This document shows, piece by piece, positions 5,058 through 13,521 of a DNA stretch of 64,000 bases. Position numbers and translations under genes: made by a program. Each line of letters begins with the position of its first letter. Position 1 is the first letter of the stretch. The stretch comes from Nocardiopsis listeri NBRC 13360 (GTDB lineage: Bacteria > Actinomycetota > Actinomycetes > Streptosporangiales > Streptosporangiaceae), in NCBI RefSeq assembly GCF_001570765.1, contig NZ_BCSH01000035.1, forward strand, positions 1 through 64,000. The letters run 5' to 3'. The notes under the pieces are model-generated. The model ran no database searches and was not told where the DNA came from. It worked only from the letters and a program-made list of their open reading frames with translations.

Positions 5058-5167
5058 GTGCCGAACGATACCTTCCAGATGGGGTTCTTTCCCGTAGAAC
5101 ACCCAGAACAGGGCAGGTCGGTCGACATTCGGAGCGCCCGGTGGATGCGATGGGACACAATCGGCCT

Positions 5168-7363
5168 ATGAGCTTTCCTCGCCAACAGGCCCGGACCCAA
5201 CGCTTCACGATCGGGGTCCCCCGTAACTTCCAGGTCTCCCCGCGGGGCGACCGCGTCACCTTCCTGCGCGGCCGGCACGGCACGGACAAGGCCACCTGTC
5301 TGTGGCAGTACCTGCCCGAGACCGGGACGTCGACGGTCCTGGCCGACCCCACCGCGCTCGGCGCCGACGACGAGAACCTTCCTCCCGAAGAGCGCGCCCG
5401 TCGGGAGCGGATGCGCGAACACGGTGGCGGCATCGTTTCGTACACGGTGGACGACGCCTTCACCCGCGCGGTCTTCACCCTGTCCGGCCGGGTGTTCTAC
5501 GTGGACCTGGTCGGTGACGACGCCTCCCCTCGCGAGCTCCCCGTGGCCGCCCCCGCCGTGGACCCCCGGATCAGCCCCGCCGGTGAACGGGTCGCCTACG
5601 TGCACAAGGGCGCGGTCCGAGTGATCGACATCGTCGACAACGGTGACGAGGACCGCGACCGTCTCCTCGTGGAGCCGGACGGCGAACACGTCACCTGGGG
5701 TCTGGCCGACCTCGTCTCCGCGGAGGAGATGAACCGGACGCGGGGCTTTTGGTGGTCGCCCGACGGCGCCTGCCTGGCCGTGAGCCGGGTCGACGAGTCC
5801 GAGGTGAACCGCTGGTTCGTCGGCGACCCCAACCGGCCCGACCAAGAGCCGCAGCCGCTGCGCTACCCGGCCGCCGGCACCGCCAACCCGGACGTTCACC
5901 TGGCCGTGATCGCGGTGCCCTCCCCCGTCGCCTACCGTCGCGACGGCCGCCCCGAGCCCACTCCGATCGAGTGGGACCGCGAAGAACTGCCGTACCTGCC
6001 CACCGTGGGCTGGACCGGTGGACCGGACGGCAACGCCACCCTGGTGTTCACCGCCCAGAGCCGGGACCAGCGAACCCTCGCCCTGTTCAGCGCCGACCCG
6101 GCGACCGGTCTGGTCTCGCGCACCCGCACCGAGAGCGACGGCGTGTGGGTGGAGCTCATGCCGGGCGTTCCGGACTTCACCGCCTCCGGTGCGTTGGTGT
6201 GGATCGGCCGGGAGAACGGCACCGGCGAACGTCGGGTCTACGTGGGCGACAAGGTGGTCAGTGGCGACTCCTACGTCCGCTCTGTGGTGGGAGTGGACGG
6301 CGACCGGGTGCTGTTCGCCGCCTCCCCCGCGGGCCGTCCCGGGGACCAGTCGTTGTGGCTGGCCGACACCCGCCAGGGCACGTGCGCGCCGGTGGAGCTG
6401 CCCGAGGGCACCGACGACGGCCACGGCGGTCTGCGTGCCGGTCGGCTACGCGGCGACACCCTCGTGCTCCAGCACAGGTCGATGGACTTCACCGGGGTGC
6501 GGACCTTCGTGGTGCGAGGCGCGAGCACCGAGACCCGCCGCACCCACGGGGAGATCGAGAGCGTCGCCGAGGTCCCGGACCTGCCGGAGCCGCGCGTGAG
6601 GACCTGGCTCGCCGGGGAACGGAAGATCCCCACGGCGTTGCTCCTGCCGTCCTGGTACCGCGAGGGTGAGGCGCCGTTGCCGGTGCTGATGGCGCCCTAT
6701 GGCGGTCCGCACGCGCAGCGGGTGCTCAACGCCCGTGGCGCCTACCTGTCCTCGCAGTGGTTCGCCGAGCAGGGCTTCGCCGTGCTCATCGCGGACGGCC
6801 GTGGCACCCCGGGCGTGGGCGTGGAGTGGGAGCAGGCGGTCCACCACGATCTCGCCGAGCCGGTACTGGCCGACCAGATCGAGGCGTTGGAGGACGCCGC
6901 CCGACGGTTCGATTGCCTGGACACCTCCCGGGTGGGCATCCACGGGTGGTCGTTCGGCGGTTACCTGTCGGCGTTGGCCGTGCTGCGTCGCCCGGACGTG
7001 TTCCACGCGGCGGTGGCGGGCGCCCCGGTGATCGACTGGACCCTGTACGACACCCACTACACCGAGCGCTATCTGGGCCTGCCACAGGAGCAGGAGGAGG
7101 CGTACACGGGTTCGTCGCTGCTCTCGGACGCCGCCAAGCTCGAACGTCCGCTGATGCTCGTCCACGGCCTCATCGACGACAACGTGGTGTTCGCGCACAC
7201 CCAGCGGATGTCGGAGGCGCTGTTGGCCGCGGGCCGCCCGCACACGGTGCTGCCGCTGGCCGGGGTGACGCACAGCCCGTCGGACCCGGTGACGGCGGAG
7301 AACCTGCTGTTGCTCCAGGTGGACTTCCTCAAGCAGAATCTCCAGGGCGACCAGGGGGTGTAG
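5168..7363 (+). CDS. S9 family prolyl oligopeptidase/dipeptidyl peptidase IV-like serine peptidase
   Basis: 731 residues. The N-terminal two thirds matches a DPP-IV-type beta-propeller, and the C-terminal alpha/beta-hydrolase domain begins near residue 490. The catalytic triad is readable: Ser595 in GWSFGGY, Asp670 in HGLIDDNVVF and His702 in GVTHSPS, with D-to-H spacing as in DPP-IV. A DPP-IV-like Glu-Glu pair is visible in DLVSAEEMNR. There is no signal peptide, so it is probably cytoplasmic and cleaves short peptides. It is divergent from mshB; no good ribosome site precedes ATG 5168. Confidence 0.92.
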   Translation: MSFPRQQARTQRFTIGVPRNFQVSPRGDRVTFLRGRHGTDKATCLWQYLPETGTSTVLADPTALGADDENLPPEERARRERMREHGGGIVSYTVDDAFTRAVFTLSGRVFYVDLVGDDASPRELPVAAPAVDPRISPAGERVAYVHKGAVRVIDIVDNGDEDRDRLLVEPDGEHVTWGLADLVSAEEMNRTRGFWWSPDGACLAVSRVDESEVNRWFVGDPNRPDQEPQPLRYPAAGTANPDVHLAVIAVPSPVAYRRDGRPEPTPIEWDREELPYLPTVGWTGGPDGNATLVFTAQSRDQRTLALFSADPATGLVSRTRTESDGVWVELMPGVPDFTASGALVWIGRENGTGERRVYVGDKVVSGDSYVRSVVGVDGDRVLFAASPAGRPGDQSLWLADTRQGTCAPVELPEGTDDGHGGLRAGRLRGDTLVLQHRSMDFTGVRTFVVRGASTETRRTHGEIESVAEVPDLPEPRVRTWLAGERKIPTALLLPSWYREGEAPLPVLMAPYGGPHAQRVLNARGAYLSSQWFAEQGFAVLIADGRGTPGVGVEWEQAVHHDLAEPVLADQIEALEDAARRFDCLDTSRVGIHGWSFGGYLSALAVLRRPDVFHAAVAGAPVIDWTLYDTHYTERYLGLPQEQEEAYTGSSLLSDAAKLERPLMLVHGLIDDNVVFAHTQRMSEALLAAGRPHTVLPLAGVTHSPSDPVTAENLLLLQVDFLKQNLQGDQGV

Positions 7364-7380
7364 CCCTGGGAGGGTTCGAC

Positions 7381-7415
7381 GCGGGTCCCGGCGCCGGGGG
7401 GACGCCGGGACCCGC
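7381..7415. terminator. Strong stem-loop between convergent genes
   Basis: GCGGGTCCCGGCG (7381-7393) pairs perfectly with 7403-7415 (13 bp, 9-nt loop). It directly abuts the stop of the pseudokinase gene and follows the S9 peptidase, so it can end both transcripts. Confidence 0.8.
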
Positions 7416-9200
7416 TCAGTGGCCGGGGTGTTCGGGGAGGATCTCCTCGTCGGTGGGCACCTGGGCGTCGACCGGCAGATCGAACCGGGCGAACTCGACC
7501 AGGTGGGTGAAGACCAGGGTCTCCCCGGTCTCGGCGATGGTCTCCTCGGTCTCCATGCGGCGTTCGAGGCGCAAGGGGTAGCCGGTCTCGTCGACCCAGA
7601 AGTCCAGGGTGGCCTCCAACGGCCCGTAGTCTCGGAAACCCTCCTGGACGTAGGTGGCCGTGTACCGGTGCCCGGTGCGTTCCGACAGGTCGCCGTCACC
7701 GAGGATCTCCGGGGGCAGATACTCGCTGGGCGCGGTACCGGTGCCCTGGTAACCGGGTTCGGCCATCTCCAACACCTGTCCGATCTCCTCGACGAGGTCC
7801 TCCCACTGCTCTCGGGGGTGCTCCAAGGGTTCCGAGCCCGTGTCGGAGTCCCGGTAGTGCAGCCGCTCCATCTCCTCCCCCGGCAGGACCTGGAGGTTCA
7901 CGACCTCTTGGAGGTCGGATCCCAAAGCCATGGCCCCCATCCCGGTCGGTCCCAGGTAGGAGGCCCGGGAGATCGCCGGGATCGGTTCGTCGGTTTGCAG
8001 GTAGTGCACCGGGGTCGTGTCGCCGACGCTGTTGTGATGGTGGTGCTCGAAGGTGGTGAAGCTGGAGGCTTCCAGGGCGAGTTCGATCGTCTCGGCCATC
8101 ACCGCATCGACGTTCTCGGGGGCCTCGGTAACAGTGGGGACGGAGGGTTCCTCCGCCACCGATCCCTCGGCGTCGGTCGAGGTGGTGTCCGTCGAATCCT
8201 CGGCTTCCCCGGCGGCGTCGTCCGCGTCCTCCCCCGCGTCCACGGCCAGCCACCCGGTGAGCAGCGCGGCGGCCAGTACGATCGTGGTCGCGCCCACCGA
8301 TACTGGGACGCGGGAACGACGGACCCGGCGCGGTTCGGGGACGGTCACCCCGGTCCAGGTCTCGGACAAAAACCCGGACACGGTCGCGCTCAGGTCGTCT
8401 TCGGACCGGCCGGTCAGCTCCTGCAAGAGGCGCTGCGCGGTCGGACGTTCTCCCGGCTCCTCCAGCAGCGCCTCGCGGACCAGCGGGGCCAGGGAGTCGG
8501 GAACGTCTCCGAGGTCGGGTTCGGTGACGGTGACCCCTGAAGGCTCCCAGCCGGTGGCGGCGAAGCGCACCAGGTGGCCCCAGGCGAACACGTCGGCGGA
8601 CCCGTTGGCCTCGGGCCCGCTCCCGCCCTGTTCGGGGGCCGCCCAGCGGGGGTTCCCGATCGGCCTCCCCACCGCCGAGGCGACCCCGAGATCCACCACC
8701 TTGGGCCCGGTCGGAGACAGGACGACCTTGTCCGGACCCAGGCCCAGATGGGCTCCGCCGAGGGCGTGCCAGGCGCTCAACGCCTCCGCCAGACCCACGG
8801 CCAGCGCGGTGAGCACGTCCCCGCGCAGCGGCCCGTGTTCGACAAGGTGCGTCGCGAGGGACCGTCCGGGCGCGTACTCGGTCGCGAGCCAGGGTTCGGC
8901 CGCCTGGATGTCGGAGCCCCGGTAGCCGGCTGCGCACACGACCCGCCCCCGAACGAGCCGGCCGACCTCCGCGGTGAGCCGGGCCCGCACGTTCGTGGCG
9001 TCGGCGACCTCGGCCGGGACGATCCGGACCGCCACCATGGTGCCGCCCGGATCCACGCCGAGCATGACCGTGCCCGCCGTGTCCCGGACGATCCGTCCGA
9101 TCAGCCGGTAGGGACCCACGGATTCCGGGTCCCTGCGGCCCGGTGGCGTCACCTCCGGAGGAAGGAGGTCACGGTCCGGGTGGGGCAGGTCGGTGGACAT
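7416..9200 (-). CDS. Receptor-type pseudokinase (degenerate Ser/Thr kinase) with extracytoplasmic domain
   Basis: 594 residues, built like its upstream neighbour: kinase fold (about 28-265), one membrane helix (about 298-320), then an acidic linker and an outer domain. All key kinase motifs are lost. The Gly-rich loop reads GRIVRDTAGTV, the ATP lysine is Arg59 (VAVR), HRDLKPGN has become HLGLGPDK so the catalytic Asp is gone, DFG is DLG (170-172), and the activation loop is about eight residues shorter. The outer domain (RYTATYVQ, ATLDFWVDETGYPLRLERR) resembles the LppX/LprG lipoprotein fold. Start ATG 9200 has a GAGAGAG-rich ribosome site. It is third in a row of kinases, 52 bases after the second. 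Confidence 0.85.
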   Translation of the reverse strand: MSTDLPHPDRDLLPPEVTPPGRRDPESVGPYRLIGRIVRDTAGTVMLGVDPGGTMVAVRIVPAEVADATNVRARLTAEVGRLVRGRVVCAAGYRGSDIQAAEPWLATEYAPGRSLATHLVEHGPLRGDVLTALAVGLAEALSAWHALGGAHLGLGPDKVVLSPTGPKVVDLGVASAVGRPIGNPRWAAPEQGGSGPEANGSADVFAWGHLVRFAATGWEPSGVTVTEPDLGDVPDSLAPLVREALLEEPGERPTAQRLLQELTGRSEDDLSATVSGFLSETWTGVTVPEPRRVRRSRVPVSVGATTIVLAAALLTGWLAVDAGEDADDAAGEAEDSTDTTSTDAEGSVAEEPSVPTVTEAPENVDAVMAETIELALEASSFTTFEHHHHNSVGDTTPVHYLQTDEPIPAISRASYLGPTGMGAMALGSDLQEVVNLQVLPGEEMERLHYRDSDTGSEPLEHPREQWEDLVEEIGQVLEMAEPGYQGTGTAPSEYLPPEILGDGDLSERTGHRYTATYVQEGFRDYGPLEATLDFWVDETGYPLRLERRMETEETIAETGETLVFTHLVEFARFDLPVDAQVPTDEEILPEHPGH

Positions 9201-9252
9201 GGAGCTCTCTCTTCCGGGTCGGGGGCGGAGGGGGCTCATCGGGCGGGGGACG

Positions 9253-13122: not shown

Positions 13123-13521
13123 ATGCGTTCGTACATCCCACTCCTGGCCCTGATGGCCGACCTGGTCTGCGTGCTCGTCTTCGTCACGGTGGGCAAGGCC
13201 GACCACGCGACCGGGCTGACCCCGGCCGCGGTGGCCGGGACCGCGTGGCCGTTCGTGGCCGCGTTGCTCGCCGGTTGGCTCGCCACCCTGGCCTGGCGCT
13301 CGCCCGCCCGGATCTGGCCGACCGGAGTGTTCGTGTGGGCGGTGACCGTGGTCGGTGCGATGCCGTTGCGTCTGCTCACCGGGGAGGGAGCGCCACTCTC
13401 CTTCGTCGTGGTGACGTCGCTGTTCCTGGCCGCGACCATGCTCGGTTGGCGGGTCGTGACGCTGTTGGTCTCCCGGTGGAAGGGCCGGGCAGCGGCTCGA
13501 ACGGTGGGCCCGCAGGCGTGA
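13123..13521 (+). CDS. DUF3054 family integral membrane protein
   Basis: 132 residues with four membrane helices (about 5-25, 37-58, 65-85, 97-118) and short loops, matching the size and pattern of the DUF3054 family (GKADHATGLTPAAVAGTAWPF in the first loop). Function is unknown across the family. It is divergent from the kinase operon and followed by a tRNA/rRNA methyltransferase gene 67 bases on, which has its own -10 sequence. Confidence 0.85.
   Translation: MRSYIPLLALMADLVCVLVFVTVGKADHATGLTPAAVAGTAWPFVAALLAGWLATLAWRSPARIWPTGVFVWAVTVVGAMPLRLLTGEGAPLSFVVVTSLFLAATMLGWRVVTLLVSRWKGRAAARTVGPQA

Follow-up and report, generated by a model that had tools for sequence, protein, structure and literature searches.

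A putative receptor pseudokinase with a predicted LprG-like outer head in a kinase array of Nocardiopsis

Can a membrane receptor be kept by a bacterium when its kinase domain has lost catalytic residues, and what could it then do? This question is raised by a gene of Nocardiopsis listeri NBRC 13360, hereafter P1, carried by the window, i.e. the whole stretch of 64,000 nucleotides that was analysed (contig NZ_BCSH01000035.1, positions 1 to 64,000). P1 (7416-9200, minus strand) is a full-length frame of 594 residues, as the earlier note on this DNA had stated, running from a start Met at 9200 to a stop at 7416. A further in-frame ATG lies at 9239, and the sequence upstream of the P1 start reads GGAAGAGAGAGCTCC in the window and GGAAGCGAGAGCTCC in the same-genus genome G036. 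The predicted protein starts with a cytoplasmic kinase-like domain (about residues 29-264; 8409-9116, minus strand), delimited by Pfam PF00069, AlphaFold2 (AF2) and Foldseek. It is followed by a single hydrophobic segment, located by the hydropathy maximum and predicted to span the membrane (residues 302-320; 8241-8297, minus strand), and by an outer domain of 244 residues (residues 351-594; 7419-8150, minus strand) characterised with AF2, Foldseek and VIA-align. The membrane helix and the outer domain were therefore found to remain, as claimed before.

P1 is preceded on the minus strand by P3 (11199-13058) and P2 (9253-11202), two active-looking receptor kinases with all kinase motifs intact; the outer head of P2 is of the P1 class and the outer domain of P3 is unlike that of P1. 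The coordinates give an overlap of 4 bp for P3 and P2 and a spacing of 52 nt from P2 to P1. These genes fill a slot flanked on the left by an S9 peptidase gene (5141-7363, plus strand) and on the right by a DUF3054 gene (13123-13521, plus strand), both identified by Pfam and slot comparison. Folding energy highlighted a strong hairpin (7377-7418, minus strand) where P1 and the S9 gene converge; the segment 7364-7418 folds at -40.2 kcal/mol, with z = -4.8 relative to 200 shuffled sequences. The hairpin, which has no T run, is a possible terminator. This hairpin was absent from the output of the consensus terminator scan, and consensus promoter and terminator scans gave nothing usable. The location of P1 at the end of a kinase operon is confirmed in the window, where the order P3-P2-P1 is followed by the hairpin and the convergent S9 gene, but it is not conserved in relatives.

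The state of the active site was analyzed by translation and by alignment with orthologues and active siblings. The codon of the ATP-binding Lys is replaced by that of Arg59 (9024-9026, minus strand), and HRD by His151-Leu152-Gly153 (HLG; 8742-8750, minus strand), in which Gly153 stands for the catalytic Asp. Arg is present in 9/9 orthologues and Lys in 39/39 active relatives; the loss of the HRD Asp is likewise common to the nine orthologues, and the residue is kept in the 39 active relatives (alignment A3, 46 of 72 references). Since the two losses are shared in this way, they are not due to chance. The Gly loop (RIVRDTAGTVM versus RIGAGGMGAVY in the active form) is replaced in all nine P1 copies, the catalytic loop (HLGLGPDK versus HRDLKPGN) has lost its Lys and Asn besides the Asp, and much of the activation loop is missing, including the Thr-rich segment of the active siblings. 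These defects are in agreement with those listed in the earlier note, to which the losses of the catalytic-loop Lys and Asn and of helix alphaG have to be added; the AF2 model and motif alignment place the alphaG deletion in the stretch GWEPSG...DLG (residues 217-231; 8508-8552, minus strand). The change of DFG to DLG (Asp170-Leu171-Gly172; 8685-8693, minus strand) was however only half a loss: the motif is altered but the metal-binding Asp is still there, as in eight of the nine copies, that of G010 having GLG. The helix-C Glu78 is also present in P1 and, with Arg59 and His151, is invariant among seven aligned copies, in which no invariant substitute Lys was found in the N-lobe. Judged from these motifs, the P1 kinase domain is presumably catalytically dead.

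The kinase fold itself appears to be retained. Against Pfam Pkinase, the P1 domain scored 36.4 bits, above the cut-off of 31.7, whereas its two neighbours reached 120.4 and 125.9 bits. AF2 built a kinase fold over residues 25-295 with a mean pLDDT of 89.5, and the best Foldseek match of this domain was S. aureus PknB (4eqm, E = 2.4e-15), the other top matches including mycobacterial PknA, PknI and PknB as well as many eukaryotic kinases. Pfam, motifs, AF2 and Foldseek thus describe the combination of a kinase fold and a lost catalytic residue that characterises a bacterial Ser/Thr pseudokinase. PknB-type receptor Ser/Thr kinases share with P1 a kinase domain, one membrane helix and an outer sensor, whereas P1 has lost the catalytic residues and its head is not of PASTA type.

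P1 was compared to the actinobacterial pseudokinase families in the available text of O'Boyle et al. 2025 (PMC12599244). ActPs1, a family placed near the Act1 kinases, resembles P1 by its actinobacterial origin, its substituted active-site residues and the absence of helix G from about 60% of its members; it is described with all three catalytic residues substituted, whereas the DFG Asp is kept in 8/9 P1 copies, and with a PQQ-type domain in many members instead of the LprG-like head, and P1, unlike ActPs1, branches with a clade of active siblings from the array in which it lies. ActPs2 has the same beta3 Lys to Arg change and a transmembrane segment after the kinase domain, but it is reported with an HRD Asp to Asn substitution, a DFG deletion and long insertions, while the P1 group has Gly or Ala at this position (Gly153 in the window), DLG and no insertions. 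The pseudokinase domain of MviN (ActPs3) is, like P1, actinobacterial, membrane-bound and deleted in the activation loop; the accessible description gives it a beta3 Thr and the loss of all three motifs, in contrast to the beta3 Arg and retained DFG Asp of P1, which has a receptor layout with an outer head and no transporter part. Because a defining feature of each family, as far as these descriptions go, is not found in P1, it is filed on its sequence in none of ActPs1, ActPs2 and ActPs3.

To know whether such a gene is maintained, the dN/dS check proposed with the earlier note was carried out by pairwise codon models on 6 of the 21 possible P1 pairs, with kinase-domain dS of at least 1.5, near saturation, in 4 of these 6. 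Omega ranged from 0.108 to 0.252 in the P1 kinase domains and each pair rejected omega = 1 (likelihood ratio of at least 19); seven pairs of active siblings gave 0.025 to 0.102. Between the window's genome (G000) and G036, omega was 0.215 (0.130-0.354) for P1, 0.037 (0.018-0.067) for P2 and 0.078 (0.047-0.128) for P3. Intervals overlapped for G010-G020 (0.138-0.507 for P1 versus 0.025-0.337 for P3b) and for G032-G036 (0.066-0.178 for P1 versus 0.040-0.109 for P2b). In neutral simulations at 0.2 substitutions per site (n = 500), 0.4% of the sequences were free of stop codons, so that neutral evolution would be expected to have interrupted the P1 frame. P1 is under purifying selection, which is weaker than in its active siblings, and it evolves faster. 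Simple decay is disfavoured by the rejection of omega = 1 in 6/6 tested pairs, and the claim that P1 is maintained and not decaying is supported against it by this selection and by dead motifs in nine copies of nine.

The slot flanked by the S9 peptidase and DUF3054 genes was then read in 40 genomes of the genus, that of the window included. It holds P1 in 9, kinases with no P1 seen in 18 (G014, G018 and G019 being only partly visible), nothing in 11 and a remnant in one (G017), and it is not visible in G031. Six P1 copies are complete and uninterrupted over deep divergence, that of G032 is open until the contig end, and those of G021 and G009 are frame-broken. The array P1-P2-P3 of the window is found again in G036, whereas P1 lies upstream of an active P3-P2 pair, and not at the end, in G010 and G020, and the active pair is present without P1 in G013. 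In Nocardiopsis alkaliphila YIM 80379 (G005), G009 and G021, the slot contains no kinase gene other than P1, with the usual flanks on the same contig, and P1 bears the only head of the P1 kind of the genome at E<=1e-8 (the G009 assembly being 84% complete). This lone P1 is intact in N. alkaliphila only; the G021 copy is interrupted once, at a C7 run, and the G009 copy is broken, as is the S9 gene next to it. The frameshifts in close relatives that had been named as a sign of simple decay were therefore encountered in part (the G017 remnant, the C7 break of G021 and the broken copy of G009), next to six uninterrupted copies. Because of this remnant and these two broken copies, P1 is dispensable in some lineages.

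Several slots carry pieces of receptor genes. In the G017 remnant (L066:8050-8664), the start of P1 is joined to the end of the outer head by an internal deletion, and a kinase fragment lies nearby. The otherwise empty slot of G034 contains an outer-head piece (L081:4566-5384), suggesting that the array was lost there. Just upstream of P1, P3-type kinase fragments were detected in G010 (L047:13128-13454) and G020 (L054:13266-13439), which fits an older and longer array. The slot of N. coralli HNM0947 (G007, L044:3333-17312) comprises seven kinase domains and a head-bearing frame of 325 residues without kinase domain.

Outside the genus, no P1 was found in 120 genomes of the family, a sample of the larger group. 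At 1e-70, the non-genus matches of this sample stop at or before position 384 of the 596 of the model, so that the head is uncovered, and no dead candidate was flagged among the kinase domains assessed in these loci. The scan of named genomes gave no match with P1 alone as query; with alignment A1, two peptide patterns were used and at least 79 loci were obtained. Among the matches listed, 7 of the 121 kinase domains of at least 180 residues in loci L093-L189 appeared to lack a catalytic residue: three only because they are cut at the locus edge, and four are P1 copies (two the window's own, the others of G032 and N. alkaliphila).

The origin of P1 was examined in a tree of 78 kinase domains, picked by length and genome subset among 108. 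The eight P1 kinase domains that could be used group together as a single clade (100/100), which belongs to the clade of P2-type kinases (100/99) and sits at the end of a long stem (0.71); a position nested in P2 and a position beside P2 were not distinguished (AU p = 0.43). For G000 and G036 respectively, tip lengths were 0.17 and 0.15 for P1, 0.023 and 0.042 for P2, and 0.083 and 0.072 for P3. A quick tree with midpoint root, of 72 of 87 domains (at least 190 residues) and leaving out the other kinases of the window's genome, set P1 apart from all other slot kinases; the placement of P1 with P2 rests on the larger 78-row tree. A distant source of P1 is disfavoured, as P1 branches with the P2-type kinases of its own slot.

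The heads have a different history. The P1 of G002 is 64% identical to the window P1 in the kinase domain and 30% in the head, and respectively 47% and 50% identical to the P2 of G010. In a tree of 41 of the 44 heads, the G002 P1 head falls among P2 heads (98/96), and the head of the G002 P4 kinase joins those of the G036 and G017 P1 copies (100/99). The AU test rejected one common clade for the P1 heads (p = 1.7e-34, and 1.5e-90 without G002 P1). The P4 kinases of G010 and G020 are 96% identical in the kinase domain and 45% in the head. Sensor heads have been exchanged between the dead and live kinases of the array, suggesting that the two kinds of receptor make similar use of the sensor.

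What could this head perceive? AF2 modelled the P1 head with a mean pLDDT of 92.8, and the top PDB match by Foldseek was LprG bound to PIM (3mha, E = 8.8e-6). VIA-align gave a Z of 12.2 with LprG 3mh8 (175 aligned residues, rmsd 4.4), 11.5 with LprF, 10.9 with LppX, 9.6 with a Bacteroides LolA-like protein, 9.1 with RseB and 7.9 with MucB, a Z below 8 being weak on its own. Identity with the nearest PDB matches was 7-11%, with TM-scores near 0.45. The model displays the half-barrel typical of the LppX/LprAFG lipid-binding fold, and an LprG/LppX/RseB-like, also LolA-like, fold is thus confidently predicted; on the basis of this fold, the signal perceived by the head would probably be a lipid or envelope stress. 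The same fold is predicted for the heads as in the LprG/LppX/LprF lipoproteins, RseB/MucB and the SCO4651 family, but P1-type heads are fused to a kinase or pseudokinase whereas these proteins are free lipoproteins or sigma-factor regulators. No earlier description of an LprG-headed receptor pseudokinase was met in the open-access literature searched.

Sequence comparisons of the head were less telling. The PDB search with the head profile returned chance-level matches only and the Pfam search nothing useful. The SCO4651 lipoprotein family NF053532 matched weakly (E<=0.1) in 31 of the 40 heads, with a best E of 3.3e-6; the window P1 head reached 18 bits, below the curated cut-off of 65, and no head of the 40 was reported as passing. 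In the accessible part of PMC6767563, sco4651 is tabulated in the envelope-stress regulon that sigma-E controls in S. coelicolor. The P2 head is homologous to that of P1 (E = 5.2e-10; 32% identity in the window). The 44 matches obtained with the P1 head at E<=1e-4, of which 40 form alignment A2, do not include the outer domain of P3. Frames of about 290-345 residues outside the slot matched the sensor head weakly and partially (G032:C133:3660-3950, G010:C1:2102052-2102330, G020:C1:7676624-7676899, G023:C165:23663-23935 and G007:C9:67046-67318); they are perhaps SCO4651-type lipoproteins.

In our judgement, there is about an even chance that P1 is a maintained receptor pseudokinase derived from a P2-type duplication and acting as a non-catalytic co-receptor, which modulates live kinases or recruits a binding protein. 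A P2-type active receptor kinase would have been duplicated in the tandem array to give P1, the outer head of which would sense a lipid or envelope-stress signal, while the inner domain would keep the kinase fold without phosphate transfer. As for the dimer partner of P1 and the direction of its effect, we infer that P1 would pair with kinase domains that are live, whether these belong to the array or are found elsewhere in the cell, and would shift their activity allosterically; alternatively, it may recruit a binding protein. Helix G serves the front-to-front contact of kinases. As alphaG and the activation loop are gone, P1 is unlikely to enter the front-to-front arrangement, in which a kinase phosphorylates a kinase, and a back-to-back contact would be the likely one. 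Both types of PknB dimers appear in the available text of PMC6428115. A precedent for a dead partner in a receptor-kinase pair is provided by PknD: in heterodimers with an inactive mutant, the wild-type domains are still phosphorylated, according to the accessible part of PMC7464533. The effect proposed for P1 can also be compared to the dead ChrS of C. glutamicum, which, in the portion of PMC9491836 available, raises heme tolerance through its live paralogue; ChrS is however a laboratory-evolved histidine kinase, and the same portion reports no significant heterodimer in two-hybrid tests.

Instead of modulating its partners, P1 could be a dominant-negative decoy that competes with P2 and P3 for the ligand or forms dead heterodimers. 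The presence of the three genes in one array in the window and G036 and the P2-class head of P1, replaced by a truly P2-type head in the dead receptor of G002, are compatible with this proposal, but no active kinase with such a head was found in three of the nine P1 genomes, the window P1 and P2 heads are only distantly alike and the P3 head is different, and a decoy seems unlikely. A fixed decoy role for two neighbours is not general, because P1 is alone in G005, G009 and G021 and upstream of the pair in G010 and G020. The earlier suggestion that P1 could be a partner or a decoy of P2 and P3 in signalling was thereby weakened, a partner role being possible where the genes co-occur or with kinases encoded elsewhere. 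An actinobacterial membrane pseudokinase, mycobacterial MviN, is described in the available text of PMC12599244 as phosphorylated by an active kinase and recruiting an FHA-type protein, and it shares the activation-loop deletion with P1. Such a phospho-scaffold is nevertheless quite improbable for P1, which lacks the Thr-rich activation-loop segment of its active siblings and shows no invariant Ser/Thr between kinase domain and membrane in seven aligned copies.

That P1 is a decaying duplicate on its way out would agree with its faster evolution, the 11 empty slots of 40, the internal deletion of the G017 remnant and the frame break of G021. The omega values of 0.11-0.25, with neutrality rejected in the six tested pairs, and the six complete copies over deep divergence, with a seventh open to the contig end, make it most unlikely, and in the G009 assembly the S9 gene is broken as well as P1. 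It is also very unlikely that P1 still binds nucleotide or has gained another enzymatic activity: the Gly loop is replaced in every copy, the Asp, Lys and Asn of the catalytic loop are lost, no invariant N-lobe Lys takes over and even the DFG Asp is gone in G010, although a salt bridge could persist between the invariant Arg59 and Glu78, the DFG Asp subsists in the eight other copies, and some Lys to Arg pseudokinases still bind ATP according to the part of a review available (PMC12599244).

The non-catalytic co-receptor remains the preferred reading, and a wider one may tentatively be drawn from it, in which we place somewhat less trust: Nocardiopsis arrays would repeatedly turn a live member into a receptor pseudokinase by similar amputations (helix G, activation loop), heads would move between dead and live receptors, and a dead receptor could outlive the live ones as sole signal reader, i.e. 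as a stand-alone non-catalytic receptor. In the accessible text of PMC12599244, bacterial receptor pseudokinases appear in surveys and a role is known for few. This one slot offers natural "experiments", with genomes having dead and live receptors, live only, dead only or none, and the exchange of heads permits a direct test of signal transmission by a catalytically dead bacterial receptor. The same genome encodes a second dead receptor, in which helix G was likewise lost; this suggests a common non-catalytic mode of action.

This second dead-looking receptor kinase (G000:C25:88579-90594; L069:2580-4595, minus strand) lies in another kinase array. It shows HGSLWPDG and DPG, keeps the Lys, has lost helix G and scores 29.4 bits with Pkinase, just under the cut-off; its outer part has WD40/propeller-type matches and it comes after two active siblings with similar outer parts. 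In the 12 loci fetched for this family, that of the window's genome included, the motif reads HGSLWPDG in 10, HGSLWPDS in one and HAALWPDG in one, and the catalytic Asp and helix G are absent from all, L201 having an internal stop. The 1.5-kb flank contains a whole active kinase domain in 7/12 loci and a cut kinase-domain piece in the other five. The family groups with propeller kinases in the 78-row tree, and the AU test speaks against a common origin with P1 (p = 0.011, moderate evidence as long branches are present); the second dead receptor is probably of separate origin. A further kinase-like ORF of the genome (G000:C6:163460-163732; L073:3188-5014, plus strand), with HGGLGPRS and no beta3 Lys, is followed by PASTA repeats and a CBM_5_12 domain and is perhaps a dead PASTA receptor. 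Other degenerate kinase-like ORFs of the same genome are found at C61:9322-10041 (HGSLRPRE/ECA), C40:29023-29739 (HHGVEPAN) and C25:70298-71017 (HNDVCPGN/GFG).
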